Shown here one piece after another: positions 50,593 through 62,872 of a stretch of 64,000 bases of DNA. The notes under the pieces were generated by a model. It was not told the origin of the DNA and did no database searches. It saw only the letters and a program-made list of their open reading frames with translations. How positions within the stretch are numbered: position 1 is the first letter of the stretch; each line of letters opens with the position of its first letter. This DNA comes from Oscillatoria sp. CS-180 (GTDB taxonomy: Bacteria > Cyanobacteriota > Cyanobacteriia > Phormidesmidales > Phormidesmidaceae): assembly GCF_028330965.1 (NCBI RefSeq), contig NZ_JAQMUB010000092.1, forward strand, positions 1 to 64,000. Reading direction: 5' to 3'. The position numbers were made by a program, and so were the translations under genes.

Positions 50593-51315
50593 TTAGAAAA
50601 TCGAGGGCTGATGACGGACCAAACTCAAGAACTCTTCGCGGGTCTTGGAATCTTCCTGGAAACAGCCCAACATGGCACTCGTGACGGTCCAAGATCCTGG
50701 CTTTTGAACTCCACGCATCGTCATGCACATGTGGCTTGCTTCAACCACTACCGCAACCCCTTGGGGATCCAAAATTTCCTGAATCGCTTCCGCTACTTGA
50801 CGAGTCAGACGCTCCTGAACCTGTAAGCGGCGGGAAAACATTTCGACAATACGGGCCAGCTTGCTCAGACCCACTACGCGCTGTTTAGGAATATAAGCGA
50901 CGTGAGCACGGCCCATGAATGGCAGCATATGATGCTCGCACAGACTGAATAGGTTAATGTCTCGCACAAGGACCATTTCATTGTGGCCTTCATCAAAAAT
51001 GGCGTTGTTCACCAATTCTTCCAGAGACTGACTATAACCACTGGTCAAAAATCTCATGGCCTCTGCTACTCGCTTTGGCGTTTTGAGCAGGCCCTCACGG
51101 TCAGGATCTTCCCCCAAAGAAATCAGCATCGTTCTGACGGCATCCATCATGGCTAACTGACCTTCGTCGGACGCAGGTTTTGAAGTCGTGCTCCGACCAT
51201 GGACAGTGCTGCGATCAGGACGGATGGTCGACATTCCATTTTGACGCAGGTCTACATCTGCAGGCGTACTCGACAAGCTTGCACCATTGTTGGCATTGGA
51301 AGACACGGTAGTCAT
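50593..51315 (-). CDS. folE: GTP cyclohydrolase I
   Basis: A 240-residue enzyme converting GTP to dihydroneopterin triphosphate for folate and pterins. Zinc and active-site motifs: [51 protein letters not shown], and [16 protein letters not shown]. The first 50 residues are a variable Ser/Asn-rich extension. ATG at 51315. It lies 64 bp downstream of the SDR gene on the same strand, so they may be cotranscribed, and pterin reduction by the SDR is conceivable but unproven. Confidence 0.95.
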
Positions 51316-51379
51316 AGTGAATCTATTGTTAACTCTCCTAACATCTAAAAACTCGCCGATTGATCGCTCTATCCACCGA

Positions 51380-52105
51380 TCAAAGGGCACCACCACTGGG
51401 CATCAACGTGATTTCGTCAATGACCGCAGAATCTGGAAGCTGAACAGCGTTGAGGATAGTCTGAGCAACGATCGCGGGTGTCAGCATCTGCGATCGCGCA
51501 AAGTCAGCTTGTACTGTCTCGGTATCCCATAGAGGCGTATTAACGGCTCCGGGAGACACTGTCATAACTCGAATGCCATTCTCACTTTCTTCAGCGCCCA
51601 AGATGCGGGAAAGACTAACCAAGCCCGCCTTGCTAGCACTGTAAGCTCCCCAGGTTGGGAAGGCATTGTGAGCCGCGATCGATGCCACATTGACAATGGT
51701 GCCTCCGCCTTGAGCACGCATTTCAGGAATAACGGCTTGCATGACCAAAAAAACGCTGGTCAAATTGAGGTCCATCAGCTTTTGCCAATCAGCAAGCGGC
51801 ATGCTGGCAAGCGAACCCGTATATCCCATTCCTGCGTTATTAATCAGAATATTGACAGAGCCAAAATCTTCAAGCAGAAGGCTCAAAGACGTTTGCAAAG
51901 TCTCGATCTGACTTAGATCGATGACGTATGGCTTGGCCTCAATACCCATTTGCAGAAGCTCTGAAGTCAAGGTCTCCAGTTTAGATTGAGAACGAGCAAC
52001 CAATGCAACATCAATTCCGGCTTTAGCAAACGCGATCGCAGTTTCGCGACCAATTCCACTGCTAGCACCTGTAATCAGTGCACGCCGTTGCGTTTCAGAA
52101 GTCAT
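51380..52105 (-). CDS. Short-chain dehydrogenase/reductase
   Basis: A 241-residue classical SDR. NAD(P)-binding [12 protein letters not shown] near 14-25, NNAGMGYTG, and the catalytic Ser-Tyr-Lys with [19 protein letters not shown] follows. A typical cytosolic oxidoreductase, substrate unknown. It is upstream of folE, both enclosed by the 82-bp inverted repeats. Confidence 0.93.
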
Positions 52106-53728: not shown

Positions 53729-54251
53729 AGTCTTAGCTTGCGTCAATGCAGGATGTGGAGTCTTGTGGTTTGACAATAGTATCGGTCAAGAGGGACCCCA
53801 GAGTAAAAAAACTAGACTATGGAAAGGTTTGAAAACCACTTATCAAAGCAGATGAACGCTTTACATCGAAAAGCATGGCGGTGTCGTGCAGAGACAAGGC
53901 AATGTGTAGTATTCTTAAGGTCATTTCAGATCGCGTAAACTTTCATTCAACCCTTATTCCAGAAGGTCAGTTGAGCAGCAGTCAAAAGAATTTCAGTCGA
54001 TTCATCGTTGTTTTTTAAGAAATGGGTCAAAACGGTGCACCCTATAGGAATGTGTTTTCTGGTGAGGTGCTGGCGACAGGCTATTATCTAGCAAATGTGG
54101 GTTTGAAAAAATATCGATCTTAGCGATCGCTGAGATTGTGAAGGAGAAGACCGACAGCGTTGCAATAGCAGTAAAGTCATGACTGCTTCGAGTTCGGTGT
54201 CTTAAGCGCTTAACAACAATAGTCAAGGCGCACAGTATTCATGAGTAAGGT
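53729..54251. other. Divergent intergenic region between accA and the olefin synthase genes
   Basis: A gap of about 520 bp with both promoters. A 74-codon minus-strand ORF (54002-54226) was judged non-coding. No RNA gene or repeat was recognised. Confidence 0.4.
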
Positions 54252-56495
54252 ATGAGCAAGGTTTCTTCCAAGGCATTCAATCAAGTTGCAACGCTGGTCG
54301 ATCTGCTAGAGTTCAGAGCTGATCATCAGCCCGAGGCGACTGCTTACGATTTTTTTGCTGACGGGGAAAATTGCACAGCTTCCATAACGTATCACGGTCT
54401 TGCTCAAGCTGTACGAGCTGTGGCGACCCTATTACAAGGGTTGGGTAGTAACGGAAAACCTGTCTTGCTGCTCTATCCACCGGGCATGGAGTACTTAGTT
54501 GCTTTTCTGGGCTGTAGCTATGCGGGTGCGATCGCGGTGCCAGCTTATCCCCCTCGCCCCAATCGTTCCCTAGAGCGGCTTCAGGTCATGATTCAAGACG
54601 CTGGTGCAGCCATCGCACTCACTCACAGCACTGTCTTGAACAGCCTGGAAAAACGCTTCTTAGACTATCCTTTTTTGAAGAAGCTTCACTGGCTAGCAAC
54701 CGACAGTGTCGACACCACACTGGCCGCAAGTTGGCACCATCCACAAGTGGGCGCTGATGACCTGGCCCTCCTCCAATACACTTCAGGCTCAACGGGAAAT
54801 CCCAAGGGCGTCAAAGTTAGCCAGGGCAACCTAATCCACAACTCTGCCAGAATCCATCGTTTCTTTGAGCATTCCGAAGCGAGTCGAGGCATGTCTTGGC
54901 TCCCGCCATACCACGACATGGGGCTAGTCGGTGGTATTCTGCAGCCTTTGTATGCAGGGATGAACATTGCCTTGATGCCACCCGTTGCCTTTTTGCAAAA
55001 GCCTGTACGCTGGCTTCAAATCGTTTCACGCTATGGCGCAACGACCAGTGGTGGACCCAACTTTGCCTACGACTTATGCGTCCAAAAAACCACTCCGGAG
55101 CAGCGAGCCGAACTGGACTTGAGCCAGTGGCAAGTAGCCTTTAGTGGTGCTGAACCTGTCCGCGCCAATACCCTGGAAGAATTTGCTGCGGCCTTTGAAG
55201 TCGCAGGATTTCACCCTGAAGCGTTCTATCCGTGCTACGGCATGGCAGAAACAACACTCATCGTTACTGGAGGAAATCCACGCGATATTCCAGAGGTCCA
55301 CCATATTGACGAGGTCGCTTTACAGCACGGACAGGCCACTCCTGTTCCTGATGGTGAAGGACAAACTATTGTTAGCTGCGGCTATCCTTCTGAAGATCAG
55401 GAATTGTTGATCGTCAATCCAGAGACATGTCAAGTTTGTCCAGATGGGCAGGTGGGTGAAATCTGGGTCGCGGTCTCTGGCAGTGTGACGCAGGGCTATT
55501 GGCAGCAGCCAGAGAGAACGGCTGAAACCTTTCACGCTTTTACCCAAGGGGGACAAGGACCTTTTCTGCGAACGGGCGACCTGGGTTTTGTGCAGGCCGG
55601 TGCCCTGTTCGTGACTGGGCGACGCAAAGAGCTGATCATCATTCGAGGCCGTAACTATTACCCTAAAGATATTGAAACTACGATTGAAACTTCCCATGAA
55701 GCTCTTCAACCTGGAGCAGGAGCCGCTTTTTCTGTCATGATTGATCATCAGGAAAGACTGGCGGTTGTGCAAGAGGTGAAGCGGACCTATTTACGTCATT
55801 TTGACGGAGACGAAGTTTTGGGGGAGATACGGCAAGCGATCGCTGAACAGCACGATCTCCAACTTTTTGGGCTACAGCTCATCAAAACAGGTAGTCTTCC
55901 CAAAACGTCTAGCGGTAAAATTCAGCGGTTTCAGTGTAGAACCAGCTATCTCGACGGCCAGCTCCCTGTGGTCTACAGCTGGCAGATCAAGAATGCAAAT
56001 TCCATATCCCCCCCGGCTGAAGGCGCTACCACTGAAGCGGTTGTGTCCCAGGAGGCTACACCAGAGGCTGTGCCAATTGCAGCCGATTCCCCCCAGGCTG
56101 CTGAAATGGAATCCTCGACTCATGAGGCGACAACAGTCCAATCTTCCGACGAGCTGCGTCGCCTCATGACTACTTGGCTAGCGCAGGAACTCAACATACC
56201 TGTCACTGATATTGATGTCCACCGACCCTTTGCTGAATATGGCCTGGATTCTGTGGCAGCCGTGGAGCTGACCGATGTTTTGCAGACCGCTGCTAATCGC
56301 TCCCTGTCACCAACGCTGGCATACGAATATCCAACGATTGAAGCCGTCGCAAACTACCTCGGAACGCAGTTTGAGCAGCCGATCTCTGAGGAGAAAGCAA
56401 AAGTAGAGGAGGACGACTTGGCTGCGTTGATGAATGAGTTGGAAGACCTCTCTGAGGCAGATGTCAAAAAACTGCTGGAACAGCAGGAAAGCTAA
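54252..56495 (+). CDS. Fatty acyl-AMP ligase with acyl-carrier domain (olefin synthase loading protein)
   Basis: A 747-residue loading protein for the polyketide synthase downstream. The FAAL domain (about 1-590) has adenylation motif YTSGSTGNPKG (starting at 176), YGMAETTL, RTGDLGFVQAG and the A10-type lysine Lys556 in TSSGKIQRF. After an Ala/Pro/Glu-rich linker comes an ACP (about 630-705) with pantetheine serine Ser667 in GLDSVAAVEL. The C-terminal 30 residues (DDLAALMNELEDLSEADVKK) look like a docking helix. In the known Ols system this activates a free fatty acid and loads it on the ACP. The next gene starts 17 bp later. Confidence 0.93.
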   Translation: MSKVSSKAFNQVATLVDLLEFRADHQPEATAYDFFADGENCTASITYHGLAQAVRAVATLLQGLGSNGKPVLLLYPPGMEYLVAFLGCSYAGAIAVPAYPPRPNRSLERLQVMIQDAGAAIALTHSTVLNSLEKRFLDYPFLKKLHWLATDSVDTTLAASWHHPQVGADDLALLQYTSGSTGNPKGVKVSQGNLIHNSARIHRFFEHSEASRGMSWLPPYHDMGLVGGILQPLYAGMNIALMPPVAFLQKPVRWLQIVSRYGATTSGGPNFAYDLCVQKTTPEQRAELDLSQWQVAFSGAEPVRANTLEEFAAAFEVAGFHPEAFYPCYGMAETTLIVTGGNPRDIPEVHHIDEVALQHGQATPVPDGEGQTIVSCGYPSEDQELLIVNPETCQVCPDGQVGEIWVAVSGSVTQGYWQQPERTAETFHAFTQGGQGPFLRTGDLGFVQAGALFVTGRRKELIIIRGRNYYPKDIETTIETSHEALQPGAGAAFSVMIDHQERLAVVQEVKRTYLRHFDGDEVLGEIRQAIAEQHDLQLFGLQLIKTGSLPKTSSGKIQRFQCRTSYLDGQLPVVYSWQIKNANSISPPAEGATTEAVVSQEATPEAVPIAADSPQAAEMESSTHEATTVQSSDELRRLMTTWLAQELNIPVTDIDVHRPFAEYGLDSVAAVELTDVLQTAANRSLSPTLAYEYPTIEAVANYLGTQFEQPISEEKAKVEEDDLAALMNELEDLSEADVKKLLEQQES

Positions 56496-56512
56496 ACGGT
56501 AAGGGTTGACCT

Positions 56513-59500
56513 GTGGATGATCTCGCACGGCGGATTGCGAAGTTGTCGCCCCAAAAACGGGCGCTGCTAGAAATTCAGTTACAGAAGAAGAAAGGCATAC
56601 CAGAACCGATCGCAATCGTAGGTATTGGGTGCCGATTTCCTGGTGCTAACAATCGGGATGCGTTTTGGCAACTCTTGCAGGACGGCGTGGACGCGATCGC
56701 CCCTGTGCCTACTAGCCGTTGGGACGTAGATGCCATTTACGATGCAGATCCCCATGCCCCTGGCAAAACCTACAGTCGCGAAGGAGGATTTCTCGAACAA
56801 GTCGATCAGTTCGATCCGGCTTTCTTCGGGATTGCGCCCAAAGAAGCAAACTATATTGATCCTCAACAGCGAGTTTTTCTAGAAGTGGCTTGGGAAGCCC
56901 TTGAAGATGCAGGCATTCCCGCCAGTGCCTTGAGCGGTACGCGAACAGGCGTCTTTGTCGGTATCTCAACCAATGACTATGCTCACTGGCTACTGTCTGG
57001 TCCTGAAGCTATCGGCACCTACACCACGACAGGACTCGCTTCCACGATGGTGGCTAATCGACTGTCCTATTTAATGAACCTGCGCGGTCCCAGTCTTGCC
57101 ATTGACACGGCCTGTTCGTCCTCACTGGTGACCGTACATTTAGCCTGTCAGAGCCTGCGAGAGGGTGAGTCCGACATGGCGATCGCAGGGGGCGTCAACC
57201 TAATTCTGCGCCCAGAAATCACCATCGGCTTCAGCAAACTCACAGCCCTTTCGCCTGACAGTCGCTGCAAGACGTTCGACGCCGACGCCAATGGCTTTGT
57301 TCGCTCGGAGGGAGCCGGAGCAGTCATCCTCAAACCACTATCTCAGGCTATTGAGGCCGGAGATCCGGTGTATGCCGTCATTCGGGGCACTGCGATCAAT
57401 CAAGACGGACGCTCTAACGGTCTCACAGCGCCCAATCGAGAAGCTCAGGAAAAAGTTATTCAAGCGGCTTTCGAGCAAGCCGGACTTGCGCCTCAAGAGG
57501 TCGATTACATCGAAGCTCATGGCACAGGTACTTTGCTAGGCGATCCCATTGAAGCCAAGGCCCTAGGACAAGTGCTGGGAGCCAAAACGGATAAGGTCGC
57601 GATCGGATCTGTGAAAAGTAACATTGGCCATACTGAAGCGGCAGCAGGCATTGCGGGACTTATCAAAACGGCTCTCTGCCTGCATCACAAAACGCTGGTT
57701 CCGAGTCTGCATTTCAACACGCCTAATCCACACATTCCCTTTGCTGACTTACCGCTCCAAGTCCAGAACGTTACAGAATCGTGGCAAACAACGCATCGTC
57801 AACACACAGCAGCAGTCAGCGCTTTTGCCTTCGGGGGAACGAATGCTCATGCCGTATTGCAATCAGCTCCCGCGATCGCCGCTACCCATAGCGCTCCTGA
57901 GCGGCCTGGTCATGTCTTAGCCCTAAGCGCTAAAACGCCTGAAGCAGTGGAAGCTAAAGCCCAACAGTTTGCAAGTTGGCTACAGCAGACTGAGGAAATG
58001 CCCGTCGCACATATTTGCCACACCGCAAATGTGGGACGAGATCAGTTTGCTCACCGAATTGCGGTGAAAGGCACAACGCGCGAGGAACTTATCACAGCTC
58101 TACAGCACAGTACCGTGGCTAGGGTTGAACCTAACGCTGAAGTTGTTTTTCTGTTTACCGGTCAAGGGTCTCAGTATGCCGGTATGGGTCGTGAACTCTA
58201 TGACACCCAGCCTGTTTTCCGAGACACCCTGGATCACTGTGCAGAGCTGCTGACACCCTATCTAGAAGAACCCCTCATCGAGATCCTGTTTGATGCAGGT
58301 GATCATCTACACCAGACGGCTTATACTCAGCCCGGTCTGTTTGCATTGGAATATGCGCTGGCAAAGCTGTGGCAAAGTTGGGGCATCAAGCCAGCCGCTG
58401 TTTTAGGCCATAGCGTCGGTGAATATGTCGCAGCCTGTATTGCTGGCATCATGAGCTTAGAGGATGCCTTGAGACTCATCGCCCAGCGCGGCAGGCTGAT
58501 GCAGTCTCTCCCTGCAACAGGAACCATGGCGGCAGTCTTTGCTAGCGAAGCAGCTGTGACTAACGTACTGGCGGAATTGAATGAAACTGTGGCGATCGCC
58601 ACTATTAATGGCCCTACCAATACCGTTATCGCTGGCACCACATCAGCTATTGAAATAGCTACGACTCGCTTTAAAGCCCAAGGCATTCGGACCCAACAGC
58701 TTCAGGTTTCCCATGCATTTCACTCGGCGCTAATGGAGCCTATCTTGCCGGTGTTTGAGCACATGGCCAGTCAGGTGGACTATCGTCCAGCTCAAATTCC
58801 GATTGCGCTTAACGTGACCGGAGAACTGCTAAAACCGGGTGAAACGCTGAATGCCACCTACTGGCGACAGCATGCTCGTCAGGCTGTGCGCTTCTCCCAA
58901 GGTCTGGAAACACTACAGGTGAGTGGTTTTCGTTGCTTCCTCGAATTGGGTCCGCAGCCCATTCTTTGCGGCATGGGACGGCGCTGTCTGACAGATAGTG
59001 ACATTATTTGGTTGCCGACCTTAAAGCGACAGCAGAGCGATTGGGTCGGGATACTGTCGAGTCTAACGACGCTCTACACACAAGGCTATTCCATCAACTG
59101 GGAGGAGTTCGATCGCCCCTATAGCTACCCGAGACTCAGTGGATTGCCCGCCTATCCATTTCAACGACAGCGATACTGGATTGAGATGCCTGAGCAACTC
59201 TCAGTCACGACGCCAACACTCTCAACGGCCAAAGCCGCTTACGCAGACTGTCTGTATGCAGTTGACTGGGAAGTCAGTGCTCTGCCGTCTGAGACTCCCG
59301 CTACCAATCTTGGCAACTGGCTCATCTTTACCGATCAGCAGGGATTGGGACAGGCCCTATTAGCACAGTTGAAGGCTCGGGGCGCTACGGTCACTGTGGT
59401 CGAGCGAGGGGATGTTTCTCGGCAGATTCAGGGCGATCGCTGGGTTCTTTCCCCCACAGATGCCGATGGATTTTCCCGAGTCACGGCGATCGCAACCTCT

Positions 59501-62500
59501 AAAGGCCCGTGTCAGGTCGCGTATTTGTGGAGTCTCGATCAGTCATCTCAGGACCCGAATGACCTCACAACCAGCGGACTAGCGCTGTTGCAGCTCACGC
59601 AAACGCTGGTCACACAACAGACTCAGGCAAGGACATTATCTCTCTGGATTATCACGCAAAACAGTCAAGCTGTAGCGACGGAGGGTCCGCCGCTCACGCC
59701 CATGCAGGCTCCTCTTTGGGGATTCGGTAGTGTTATTGCACTAGAACATTCAGAGCTATGGGGCGGCTTAATTGATGTGGAATCGCCAACCACAGACACT
59801 GCTAATTTGGCAAAACAACTGCTGGCCCACATCGCGGCGACAGATGCGGAAGATCGAGTAGCGTTTCGTCAGGGTCAGCGCTGGGCAGCCAGAGTGCGAT
59901 CGCTGCCTGCACCCACCGCCTCAAAATCCACCACCATCCAATCCACCGGGACCTACCTCATCACTGGAGGATTAGGCTCTTTGGGACTTAAAGTGGCCCA
60001 GTCTTTGGTTGATCAAGGAGCCAAGACGCTAGTACTGGTTAGCCGCCGAGGGGAACGTCCCCAACACGCTGAAGCCCTAGCAAAACTGCGTCAGAAAGGC
60101 GTCACAGTGCATGTCAAAATCGCTGACGTTGCCGATACCGCAGCCGTCACAGCCTTATTTGCCGATCTGCAAACCCATCTGCCACCCTTGCGCGGAGTTG
60201 TGCACGCAGCAGGAACATTGGCTGATGGTCTGTTGATTGGACAAACTTGGGAGCGATTTCAAACCGTGATGCAGCCCAAAATTCAGGGCGCGTGGAACTT
60301 GCATCAGGCAGTACAAGACAAACCACTGGACTTCTTTGTTCTATTTTCGTCCGTTGCTTCGCTGCTGGGATCACCAGGACAAAGCAATTATGCTGCTGCC
60401 AATGCCTTTCTTGACGCCCTAGCCCGTGTTCGTCATCAGCAAGGACTACCCGCTCAGTCTCTCAATTGGGGACCTTGGCAGGGAACCGGACTAGCGTTAC
60501 AGAATCAGCAAACCCTTCAACGTCTGAAGAGTCGCGGGCTTGAAAGCTGGTCTCCAGAACAGGGTATTCGTCTGTTTGAGCGATTATTAAGCAACGGAGC
60601 TGAGATACCGCCCCAAGTGGGTGTCTTCCAAGTGAATTGGGACACGCTGCTATCTCAATGGCCAACGACCGTGCCGGCCTTTTTCAAAGACCTCACGAAG
60701 AAACACTCTGCAAATCAGGATGACAGTACTCGCCAACAGATTGTGTCTCTGAAGGGACCTGAGCGCATTGAAGCGCTCCTGACCTACCTCACAACTGAAG
60801 TTGCTAAGGTTCTGGGACGCTCTGATGACATTCCAGCAACCAGTAACCTGCTGGATATTGGCCTTGATTCCCTAATGGTTATGGATTTGCTTAGTCTCTG
60901 TAAGCGAGACTTAGGGCTGACGCTATACCCCCGTGAAGTCTTCGAGCATCCAACGTTAGAGGCGCTTAGTCAATATCTAGCTCACGAGCTAGAGCGTATC
61001 CAACTAGGACAGTCTGTTCCATCGGCGTCGCCAACTGATGAACAACCCGACTTGACAATTCCGATTTGGGGTCGCGATCGCCAGTTCTCGACCGTAAAAT
61101 CCCAAAACGAATCAGCTATTTTCTTGTTAAGCAGTCCCCGCTCAGGCTCCACACTGTTGCGGGTCATGCTGGCCGGTCACTCTGATCTTTTTTGTCCGCC
61201 GGAACTTCATCTACTTCCCTTTGAAACCCTGGTTGAGCGCCAGTCTGCTTTGGCTAACAGCTATTTGGACCAAGGACTGCAACGGGCTTTGATGGAGTTG
61301 AAAGGGCTAGATGCAGACGCGAGTCAGGCTTTACTAGACGAATGGACAGCTGCAGGCATGACAGTGCCAGAGATCTACCGCAAGCTGCAAACGCTAGCAA
61401 GCGATCGCCAACTCGTCGATAAATCACCGACCTATGGCTTCAGCGCCAGCACCTTGAATCGCGCCGAGCAGATTTTTAAGGGAGCCAAATATATCCACTT
61501 GGTACGCCATCCCTACGCCGTCATCGATTCGTTCGTCCGCAATCGGATGGACAAAATCTTCGACCTGGCGGATACCGATCCCTATCGGCTAGCAGAGCGC
61601 GTATGGACGATTAGTAACCAAACCATTCTCAACTTCCTGGCAACGATCGATCCCACTCGACATCATTTCATCCGCTACGAAAATCTTGTCACTCGACCAG
61701 AAACCGTTATGAAGCGGCTCTGCAAATTTTTGAGTATCCCGTTTCGCTCTGCAGTGCTTGACCCCTATGAACAACGGGAGCAACGAATGACTGATGGCGT
61801 GAAAGCCCAGTCCAGACCGATTGACGATCCCAACTTTCATCAGCGCCGTGCGATTGACCCAGAGTTGGCTCAAGCTTGGAAGCTGGTCGCTTTGCCCCAC
61901 GAACTATCCCTCGACAGCGAAGCATTGGCTCAGCAACTGGGCTATGCCCAGCTGGAGAAGGCAGATTCTGCAATCGCGGCTGCCCTCACATCAACGGGAC
62001 ACCCACTGGCAACCCTGCAGGAGCACCAGATTCACGTGCGGGGTTTAGACCTTTGTGTTTGCACTTGGGGAGCGGATACAGGGCAACCCATCCTCTGCCT
62101 CCACGGCGTACTTAATCAGGGAGCTATTTGGGATGCGATCGCTCCGGCGCTTGTGCAGCAAGGGTATCGTGTTATCGCCCCAGACCTACGAGGACATGGT
62201 AAATCCGCCCACGTTGGACCGGAAGGCAACTATCAGCTCTTAGACCATCTTGGCGATATCGACGCCCTAGTTCAACAGTTAGGGCTAGAAACTTTTCCCG
62301 TTGTTGGACACTCGATGGGTGCGGTCATCGCAGCATCCTACGCCAGCGCCCGTCCCGAGCAAATTCAGTCGCTGACTTTAGTAGAGCCAGTGGTTCCCAG
62401 CGCTGAAACAGATTCCTCTGCTGAGCAGTTGACGACTCACCTTAACTATCTTGCAGTCCCTCCCGTTCATCCCATCTATGCCAGTTTGTCTGAAGCCGCT

Positions 62501-62872
62501 GATCGCATTCAAAGAACGATTCCAGGGCTGTCTCTAGCCTGGGCTGAAAAACTGGCCGCTCGGATCGTGGAGCCGGTTAAAGGAGGCGTCCGCTGGCGTT
62601 GGGATGCCCGATTGCAGGTGCGCACCCGCTTTGGTTTGAGCGGAGGTACTTTTACTCGCGATCGCTACGCTCAACTTTTGCAGCATATCCAAGCCGCCAC
62701 CACGCTCATCTTTGGTAAACAAAGCGATTTCAACCGCCCAGAAGACTTGACATTCCAACAGCAGAATCTACGCGGTGCCAAAGTCGTCTCCATTCCGGGC
62801 GGACACCACTTACCGCTACAGTCTCCAGCAGAAGTTGCTAGCGAGCTTCTAAAGCGGTTAGGCGACCTGTAG
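56513..62872 (+). CDS. Olefin synthase-type polyketide synthase: KS-AT-KR-ACP-ST-TE
   Basis: A 2119-residue modular PKS. An N-terminal helix (DDLARRIAKLSPQKRALLEI) is followed by KS (Cys201 in DTACSSS, His336, His373), AT (Ser634 in GHSVGE, His737 in HAFH, the malonyl-type signature), KR (GGLGSLG near 1152, Ser1280, Tyr1293; LAD in the B-type position), ACP (Ser1453), a PAPS sulfotransferase (SSPRSGSTLLR near 1540) and an alpha/beta-hydrolase thioesterase (Ser1934 in GHSMG, His near 2098). This is the CurM/Ols order: one elongation with malonyl-CoA, beta-keto reduction, sulfation, then hydrolysis with decarboxylation to a terminal alkene. GTG start at 56513. Confidence 0.95.
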   Translation: MDDLARRIAKLSPQKRALLEIQLQKKKGIPEPIAIVGIGCRFPGANNRDAFWQLLQDGVDAIAPVPTSRWDVDAIYDADPHAPGKTYSREGGFLEQVDQFDPAFFGIAPKEANYIDPQQRVFLEVAWEALEDAGIPASALSGTRTGVFVGISTNDYAHWLLSGPEAIGTYTTTGLASTMVANRLSYLMNLRGPSLAIDTACSSSLVTVHLACQSLREGESDMAIAGGVNLILRPEITIGFSKLTALSPDSRCKTFDADANGFVRSEGAGAVILKPLSQAIEAGDPVYAVIRGTAINQDGRSNGLTAPNREAQEKVIQAAFEQAGLAPQEVDYIEAHGTGTLLGDPIEAKALGQVLGAKTDKVAIGSVKSNIGHTEAAAGIAGLIKTALCLHHKTLVPSLHFNTPNPHIPFADLPLQVQNVTESWQTTHRQHTAAVSAFAFGGTNAHAVLQSAPAIAATHSAPERPGHVLALSAKTPEAVEAKAQQFASWLQQTEEMPVAHICHTANVGRDQFAHRIAVKGTTREELITALQHSTVARVEPNAEVVFLFTGQGSQYAGMGRELYDTQPVFRDTLDHCAELLTPYLEEPLIEILFDAGDHLHQTAYTQPGLFALEYALAKLWQSWGIKPAAVLGHSVGEYVAACIAGIMSLEDALRLIAQRGRLMQSLPATGTMAAVFASEAAVTNVLAELNETVAIATINGPTNTVIAGTTSAIEIATTRFKAQGIRTQQLQVSHAFHSALMEPILPVFEHMASQVDYRPAQIPIALNVTGELLKPGETLNATYWRQHARQAVRFSQGLETLQVSGFRCFLELGPQPILCGMGRRCLTDSDIIWLPTLKRQQSDWVGILSSLTTLYTQGYSINWEEFDRPYSYPRLSGLPAYPFQRQRYWIEMPEQLSVTTPTLSTAKAAYADCLYAVDWEVSALPSETPATNLGNWLIFTDQQGLGQALLAQLKARGATVTVVERGDVSRQIQGDRWVLSPTDADGFSRVTAIATSKGPCQVAYLWSLDQSSQDPNDLTTSGLALLQLTQTLVTQQTQARTLSLWIITQNSQAVATEGPPLTPMQAPLWGFGSVIALEHSELWGGLIDVESPTTDTANLAKQLLAHIAATDAEDRVAFRQGQRWAARVRSLPAPTASKSTTIQSTGTYLITGGLGSLGLKVAQSLVDQGAKTLVLVSRRGERPQHAEALAKLRQKGVTVHVKIADVADTAAVTALFADLQTHLPPLRGVVHAAGTLADGLLIGQTWERFQTVMQPKIQGAWNLHQAVQDKPLDFFVLFSSVASLLGSPGQSNYAAANAFLDALARVRHQQGLPAQSLNWGPWQGTGLALQNQQTLQRLKSRGLESWSPEQGIRLFERLLSNGAEIPPQVGVFQVNWDTLLSQWPTTVPAFFKDLTKKHSANQDDSTRQQIVSLKGPERIEALLTYLTTEVAKVLGRSDDIPATSNLLDIGLDSLMVMDLLSLCKRDLGLTLYPREVFEHPTLEALSQYLAHELERIQLGQSVPSASPTDEQPDLTIPIWGRDRQFSTVKSQNESAIFLLSSPRSGSTLLRVMLAGHSDLFCPPELHLLPFETLVERQSALANSYLDQGLQRALMELKGLDADASQALLDEWTAAGMTVPEIYRKLQTLASDRQLVDKSPTYGFSASTLNRAEQIFKGAKYIHLVRHPYAVIDSFVRNRMDKIFDLADTDPYRLAERVWTISNQTILNFLATIDPTRHHFIRYENLVTRPETVMKRLCKFLSIPFRSAVLDPYEQREQRMTDGVKAQSRPIDDPNFHQRRAIDPELAQAWKLVALPHELSLDSEALAQQLGYAQLEKADSAIAAALTSTGHPLATLQEHQIHVRGLDLCVCTWGADTGQPILCLHGVLNQGAIWDAIAPALVQQGYRVIAPDLRGHGKSAHVGPEGNYQLLDHLGDIDALVQQLGLETFPVVGHSMGAVIAASYASARPEQIQSLTLVEPVVPSAETDSSAEQLTTHLNYLAVPPVHPIYASLSEAADRIQRTIPGLSLAWAEKLAARIVEPVKGGVRWRWDARLQVRTRFGLSGGTFTRDRYAQLLQHIQAATTLIFGKQSDFNRPEDLTFQQQNLRGAKVVSIPGGHHLPLQSPAEVASELLKRLGDL

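Follow-up and report, generated by a model that had tools for sequence, protein, structure and literature searches.

A predicted two-subunit olefin synthase (OLS), encoded at 54252-62872 in a stretch of DNA from the cyanobacterium Oscillatoria sp. CS-180, occupies the chromosomal slot held in most of its relatives by the unrelated ado-aar pathway, which consists of the aldehyde deformylating oxygenase (ADO) and the acyl-ACP reductase (AAR). The window, as the whole stretch will be called, comprises 64,000 nucleotides and corresponds to contig C35 of this 6.5 Mb genome, designated G000 (G, C and L numbers stand for genomes, contigs and loci). The best overall explanation, in which considerable confidence can be placed, is that of a two-subunit OLS for odd-chain terminal alkenes, located in the ado-aar slot and belonging to a set of exchanged cassettes. 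A more specific proposal is considered reasonably probable: OLS and ado-aar would be alternative cassettes of the accA locus, repeatedly swapped by homologous recombination and hence nearly exclusive of each other, and the DUF6208 protein would be an unrecognised part of the olefin system. The genes on which this description is based are the following.

50593..51396, - strand: folE (GTP cyclohydrolase I) of the accA-SDR-folE block, in the same order in ado genomes and in PMC4094844
51380..52105, - strand: short-chain dehydrogenase (SDR) of the same block, in the same order in ado genomes and in PMC4094844
52733..53776, - strand: accA (PF03255), landmark of the ado-aar locus, which follows AAR in the ado genomes of the family
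53777..54251, no strand: intergenic region between accA and the FAAL gene; in ado relatives, G170 for example, the next genes after accA are AAR and ADO
54252..56495, + strand: OLS subunit 1, FAAL-ACP (ACP, acyl carrier protein), 747 aa, ATG start, intact open reading frame (ORF), assigned from Pfam and motifs
56496..56512, + strand: intergenic gap of 17 bp between both OLS genes, read directly
56513..62872, + strand: OLS subunit 2, KS-AT-KR-ACP-ST-TE (ketosynthase, acyltransferase, ketoreductase, ACP, sulfotransferase, thioesterase), 2119 aa, GTG start, intact ORF, assigned from Pfam

Klahn et al. 2014 (PMC4094844) surveyed 181 cyanobacterial genomes and found ado-aar clustered with accA and a dehydrogenase in 61% of them, folE coming next in most cases. 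In the family to which CS-180 belongs, the ado genomes display the order ADO-AAR-accA-SDR-folE, and the OLS genomes retain accA-SDR-folE with OLS beside this block; both pathways adjoin it in nearly all the family loci that could be read. The correspondence can be followed gene by gene within the genus of CS-180, since G170 contains successively an M50 peptidase gene, trpF, folE, SDR, accA, AAR and ADO, and the window an M50 peptidase gene, trpF, folE, SDR, accA and then OLS, which takes the place of AAR and ADO in reversed orientation. The original prediction had described accA as a divergent neighbour supplying malonyl-CoA: its divergent position is correct, but the chief significance of the gene is as a marker of the ado-aar locus. 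None of the OLS-accA gaps inspected, including that of the window, contained a convincing remnant of ADO or AAR. An earlier report of this shared slot was not found in a literature search that did not cover the olefin-synthase survey of Zhu et al. 2018, and the gene neighbourhood of OLS is not discussed in the available portion of Coates et al. 2014 (PMC3903477).

The distribution of the two pathways was determined in 65 genomes of the family. OLS is present in 21 of them, ado in 40, neither in four and both in none (Fisher p 2e-13), the OLS count leaving out a 42%-identical match limited to the sulfotransferase in G400 and a second partial match in G394. The four genomes with neither pathway are all drafts with a completeness of 90% or less, and not one of the 61 assignable genomes carries both. 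G000 itself lacks ADO and AAR, as judged from the absence of any match to PF11266 or TIGR04058. OLS and ado are mutually exclusive in this family. Coates et al. in 2014 (PMC3903477) and Knoot and Pakrasi in 2019 both called it unexplained that cyanobacterial genomes carry one pathway or the other, not both; in PCC 7002, OLS and ado-aar are able to coexist and partly replace each other (PMC6361979).

The edges of the exchanged segments can be observed in genus g148, the genus holding the records named Nodosilinea. Its OLS cassette is co-directional with accA and contains FAAL, PKS (polyketide synthase), DUF6208 and, in some genomes, a fatty-acid desaturase, followed by accA-SDR-folE. Close relatives whose flanks are 88-92% identical and otherwise collinear differ in what lies between these flanks, the OLS cassette in some and ado in others. 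When G425 (OLS) is compared with G414 (ado), a DNA identity of ~92% extends on the left up to position 8425 of L098, a short stretch beside the breakpoint excepted, and identity resumes at ~89% on the right at 9907 of L098, near the start of AAR; the exchanged segment is an OLS cassette of ~10 kb in the former and 1.5 kb with ADO in the latter. Along its flanks, G425 is nearly everywhere closest to G414. The cassette and the initial 250 bp of AAR depart from this rule, the latter sharing 91% identity with OLS strains against 82% with G414. The pattern resembles that of recombination with a breakpoint in the 5' part of AAR. In the cassettes of L107 (15611-16585), L109, L112, L210 and L224, the desaturase (PF00487), which may set the unsaturation of the alkene, is placed either between DUF6208 and AAR or after DUF6208.

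Five OLS genomes (G407, G416, G417, G421 and G425) lack ADO but have an intact AAR, located between the OLS cassette and accA.

L107:17210-18259, also L108, L109, L112 and L116: orphan AAR loci of five Nodosilinea-group genomes

These orphan AARs keep the catalytic Cys (Cys294 in the S. elongatus enzyme). Their dN/dS (ratio of nonsynonymous to synonymous substitution rates), 0.08-0.11 among OLS strains versus 0.023-0.044 for ADO-linked AARs, indicates a constraint relaxed about threefold and still in force. Such orphans offer a new handle on the question, being a state absent from the 181 genomes of Klahn et al. 2014, none of which had ado or aar alone (PMC4094844).

When mapped on a 50-genome rpoB tree, the pathway carried, OLS or ado, switches at least 11 times; the ADO label alone, in a count that treats genomes with neither pathway as non-ado, requires 13 changes, of which 10 are forced by well-supported branches. 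The decisive evidence comes from G425. In approximately unbiased (AU) tests, whose groups were picked after the trees had been seen, rpoB, a single gene, rejects the grouping of G425 with the OLS strains G416 and G417 (p 0.0018), and AAR rejects its grouping with the ado strains that are its rpoB neighbours (p 4.7e-5). All trees other than those of the AU test were quick ones. The AAR linked to OLS has on this basis a history different from that of rpoB. In the OLS tree, which mostly agrees with rpoB, one exception is G394, whose OLS (L054/L205) groups with that of G444, a member of another genus, and whose congener G395 (L087) has ado; this OLS was likely acquired by horizontal transfer. Repeated exchange of cassettes at the accA locus is strongly suggested by these data. 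The exchange would proceed by homologous recombination (double crossover) through the shared flanks, the gain of one cassette removing the other in a single step, and such a replacement would explain the exclusivity with no need for the two pathways to be biochemically incompatible.

The same arrangement extends beyond the family: OLS, then DUF6208 and accA, accompanied by SDR and/or folE, are encountered in Coleofasciculus, Moorena, Symploca, Prochloraceae, the filamentous cyanobacterium ESFC-1 and Pseudanabaenaceae-like metagenome-assembled genomes (MAGs), in split as well as fused forms. Several observations nevertheless weigh against a common slot with repeated exchange. CS-180 is collinear with its ado relatives on the accA side only, an RDD gene being found beyond OLS versus two desaturase-like genes beyond the ADO of G170. 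One OLS locus of the family (G424, L106) is not beside accA within the DNA read, and the same holds for many fused OLS loci outside the family. Most loci of the Pleurocapsales type and of Picosynechococcus do not adjoin accA. The trees of OLS, ado and aar each agree broadly with that of rpoB. Finally, three Pseudanabaenaceae-like MAGs (L252, L254 and L261) combine OLS at accA with a divergent ADO, no AAR being found in the genome; the exclusion is accordingly not absolute, and is strict for complete pathways only.

L252:2152-2814, L254:2041-2694 and L289: divergent ADO, ~50% identical, metal ligands kept; directly upstream of OLS in L252 and L254

Part of this evidence would fit a history without exchange, in which the ancestor of this portion of the family had OLS and ado-aar adjoining each other at accA and its descendants independently lost one or the other. 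The congruence of the three trees is in line with such reciprocal loss, the OLS-AAR-accA order of the five Nodosilinea genomes is the remainder expected after loss of ado alone, and fused OLS does adjoin a divergent ADO in L252 and L254. Exchange is favoured, however, because reciprocal loss would leave AAR following the genome, and AAR sets G425 among the OLS strains, apart from the neighbours that it has in rpoB, with a breakpoint in the 5' end of AAR itself. The absence of both pathways together from every assignable genome and the grouping of the G394 OLS with that of another genus also argue against reciprocal loss, which is regarded as unlikely. A second possibility is a single gain of OLS next to accA, at the root of those lineages of the family that carry OLS, with vertical inheritance afterwards and later restoration of ado-aar from relatives in some lineages. 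The order of the Nodosilinea OLS subtree does match rpoB and, around genus g1, G444, G393, G432 and G000 carry OLS and the other g1 genomes of determined state ado. The orientation of OLS relative to accA differs, however, being divergent in the CS-180 group and G391 and co-directional in Nodosilinea, and this scenario, conceivable if doubtful, is a special case of swapping that still requires many exchanges. Acquisition of the ado-aar of genus g1 from Nodosilinea was also considered and dropped, since the outgroup-rooted rpoB tree makes both parts of the family sisters (support 98*), which fits the ado tree without transfer.

The identity of the enzyme can be examined independently of its location. 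The following elements were assigned within the two genes.

54309..55502, + strand: FAAL adenylation domain (PF00501, residues 20-417, E 1.6e-67), with YTSGSTGNPKG and RTGDLG
56178..56360, + strand: loading ACP (ACP1; PF00550, residues 643-703), phosphopantetheine Ser in YGLDS
56388..56492, + strand: C-terminal tail of subunit 1, putative docking element, conserved ELExLSxAExxxLL helix
56513..56596, + strand: N-terminal basic helix of subunit 2, VDDLARRIAKLSPQKRALLEIQLQKKKG, putative docking element, 80% mean column identity over 8 split forms
56603..57715, + strand: ketosynthase (PF00109/PF02801, residues 31-401), Cys/His/His
58145..59086, + strand: acyltransferase (PF00698, residues 545-858), GHSVG and HAFH
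59948..60481, + strand: ketoreductase (PF08659, residues 1146-1323), GGLGSLG and Tyr motif
60785..60979, + strand: ACP2 (PF00550, residues 1425-1489), IGLDS
61118..61744, + strand: sulfotransferase dependent on 3'-phosphoadenosine-5'-phosphosulfate (PAPS; PF13469, Sulfotransfer_3, residues 1536-1744), SSPRSGST
62090..62842, + strand: decarboxylating thioesterase (alpha/beta hydrolase, residues 1860-2110), matching the CurM TE 3qit

Neither ORF contains an internal stop, and Pfam also detects the DIP2-like C-terminal part of the FAAL at residues 460-573 of subunit 1. The order FAAL-ACP-KS-AT-KR-ACP-ST-TE is complete over the two adjacent genes, as originally predicted at these coordinates. Every catalytic motif that was sought is present, in the FAAL, both ACPs (GLDS), KS, AT, KR, ST and TE. 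The ST matches the CurM sulfotransferase 4gbm (E 2.6e-92) and the PCC 7002 Ols sulfotransferase 4gox (E 1.2e-81) in near end-to-end alignments; the TE matches the CurM thioesterase 3qit (E 4.4e-72) with alignment of Ser, Glu, His and Arg, the catalytic residues and the sulfate-binding Arg of the CurM enzyme. The earlier claim of intact catalytic residues is confirmed by these comparisons. The pair can be classified from its sequence as a two-subunit OLS, and terminal alkenes are its expected product because the catalytic residues of an OLS are in place. This last expectation, already formulated in the original prediction, is further supported by the 1-heptadecene made by three Moorea strains with the same split (PMC3903477). 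Elsewhere in G000, contigs C5, C6, C75 and C81 contain several large ORFs matching FAAL and ACP, probably genes for nonribosomal peptide synthetases (NRPS) or PKS, and two of their FAALs are ~50% identical to that of OLS.

The likeness to CurM raises the possibility that the KS-TE protein ends a natural-product assembly line and produces no membrane hydrocarbons. PKSs with the same KS-AT-KR-ACP-ST-TE order do exist (L075, L081, L257-L274), and G000 has other large NRPS/PKS-like genes. The partner encoded upstream is, however, a FAAL-ACP, no PKS feeds the KS-TE protein, its N-terminus is unlike that of CurM-like PKSs, and it groups with split OLS in trees; moreover, two CurM-like genomes keep AAR, unlike G000, which lacks AAR and ADO. 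A role in CurM-like secondary metabolism, very improbable in view of these data, was rejected on account of the FAAL-ACP partner and the trees. In L075 and L081 (G300 and G262), the CurM-like ST-TE module stands behind another PKS and AAR is kept, unlike in most true-OLS genomes.

The division of OLS into two proteins had been regarded as unusual. The break does lie between the loading ACP and the KS, as shown by the domain limits and the 17-bp gap, but it was published in 2014: according to Coates et al. (PMC3903477), the OLS of Leptolyngbya sp. PCC 6406 and of three Moorea strains consistently consists of two ORFs separated by 9-17 bp, and the two-ORF sequences cluster together. PCC 6406 (G432, L207) belongs to the same family as CS-180. 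The complete OLS loci found in this family are all split at one common place, and the true split forms, Moorena included, constitute one clade (support 100 in a 32-sequence tree) and also fall together in a 76-sequence tree. CS-180 groups with PCC 6406 and Moorena (support 100) and its gap fits the published range. The gene pair is an unremarkable representative of the known split-OLS clade. A sequencing error at the junction, named at the outset as a possible refutation, is excluded because every complete OLS locus of the family splits at the same place. The broader idea of a frameshift in an ordinary single-chain OLS draws on the abundance of single-chain forms in cyanobacteria and on a few loci with displaced, frameshift-like breaks (L220 and L256). 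It is contradicted by the two-ORF break and both terminal helices kept in every complete family locus, and by the shared architecture of Moorena within a single clade; it was rejected, whether as sequencing error or as pseudogene, and its probability is negligible. In Nodosilinea sp. WJT8-NPBG4 (L061/L219), both genes share one reading frame, and a single stop codon plus eight further codons lie between them.

The tail of subunit 1, ELEDLSEADVKKLLEQQES, contains 7 acidic and 2 basic residues, and the head of subunit 2, VDDLARRIAKLSPQKRALLEIQLQKKKG, 8 basic and 3 acidic ones. The tail consensus ELExLSDAEVQxLL is kept in 10 of the 10 split forms aligned, and the head consensus VDDLARRIAKLSPQKRALLELQLQKKKG in the 8 split forms aligned; the VxDLARRI start of subunit 2 is kept in homologues, with a GTG start codon wherever their DNA was read. 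A docking pair formed by this tail and head is plausible, as both helices are retained among split forms and missing from the ACP-KS linkers of single-chain ones. Of the proposal of an acidic tail docking on a basic head, the charges hold, but the solved class 2 docking domains (4MYY, 4MYZ, 6TDN) gave no match at the sequence level: searches for the CurG/H, CurK/L and Bamb_5925/5924 pairs with phmmer, using a single 60-residue query, and with two profiles gave hits that were unrelated or at chance level.

The route to terminal alkenes through sulfotransferase and thioesterase is established for CurM and for the Ols of PCC 7002, and the same chemistry can be inferred for the CS-180 pair. The FAAL would adenylate a fatty acid, probably C16 or C18, and load ACP1. 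The tail of subunit 1 would then meet the N-terminal helix of the KS subunit, where KS-AT-KR would extend the chain with malonyl-CoA and reduce it to a 3-hydroxyacyl chain. The ST would sulfonate this chain with PAPS as donor, and the TE would hydrolyse it, decarboxylate it and eliminate sulfate to release the 1-alkene.

At many loci a gene for DUF6208 (PF19713) stands shortly behind OLS, also in the case of OLS-like genes from bins of Acidobacteria, Planctomycetota and Bacteroidota. Among the genomes of the family, 20 of the 21 with OLS have it and none of the 40 with ado (p 1.5e-14 over all 65), so that its presence predicts OLS almost perfectly and provides another new handle. In CS-180 and PCC 6406 the gene is not linked to OLS.

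G000:C30:138004-138867 (L290:9463-10443), - strand: DUF6208 gene of CS-180, outside the window
G432:C1:22198-23061: DUF6208 gene of PCC 6406

No mention of DUF6208 was found in the literature searched. Its predicted structure is confident (pLDDT 91.9) and resembles a few proteins, 6ans (Z 11.5), 3vb9 (Z 9.6) and 3u07 (Z 9.5), all uncharacterised, so that the comparison names no function. On the basis of its distribution, DUF6208 is a candidate new component of the olefin system; that it helps to release the alkene or to deliver it to the membrane is a guess. OLS- or CurM-like KS to ST-TE genes followed by DUF6208 were also seen in L263, L277, L280, L281, L282 and L283, from bins labelled Actinobacteria, Acidobacteria, Crocinitomicaceae, Planctomycetota and Phycisphaerae; L281 and L283 hardly differ, and at least one of these labels may result from a binning error.

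The interest of this system lies in the locus, where two unrelated hydrocarbon pathways use one accA slot and intermediates are still visible in Nodosilinea. If true, a shared locus with repeated cassette exchange is a simple genetic explanation of the exclusivity of OLS and ado-aar. The two-subunit OLS is in addition a natural precedent for engineering the loading half apart from the elongation half. Among known systems, the closest are the split OLS of PCC 6406 and of Moorea/Moorena, which share the two ORFs, the break point, the 9-17 bp gap, the domain order and the clade (Coates et al. 2014, PMC3903477); PCC 6406 belongs to another genus than CS-180, and its subunit 2 is 59% identical. The single-chain Ols of the Synechococcus (Picosynechococcus) sp. 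PCC 7002 type has the same eight domains in the same order and an ST homologous to the solved 4gox, but it is one polypeptide whose ACP-KS linker lacks both terminal helices and, in Picosynechococcus PCC 7117, its locus is not beside accA, unlike that of CS-180. CurM of the curacin pathway has the same KS-AT-KR-ACP-ST-TE order, with ST and TE aligning nearly end to end together with their catalytic residues, but it is fed by an upstream PKS instead of a FAAL-ACP, and CurM-like proteins have another N-terminus. The ado-aar locus (Klahn et al. 2014, PMC4094844) shares with OLS the accA, SDR and folE neighbourhood; its enzymes, an acyl-ACP reductase and an aldehyde deformylating oxygenase, are unrelated to OLS and lead to alkanes, not to 1-alkenes.

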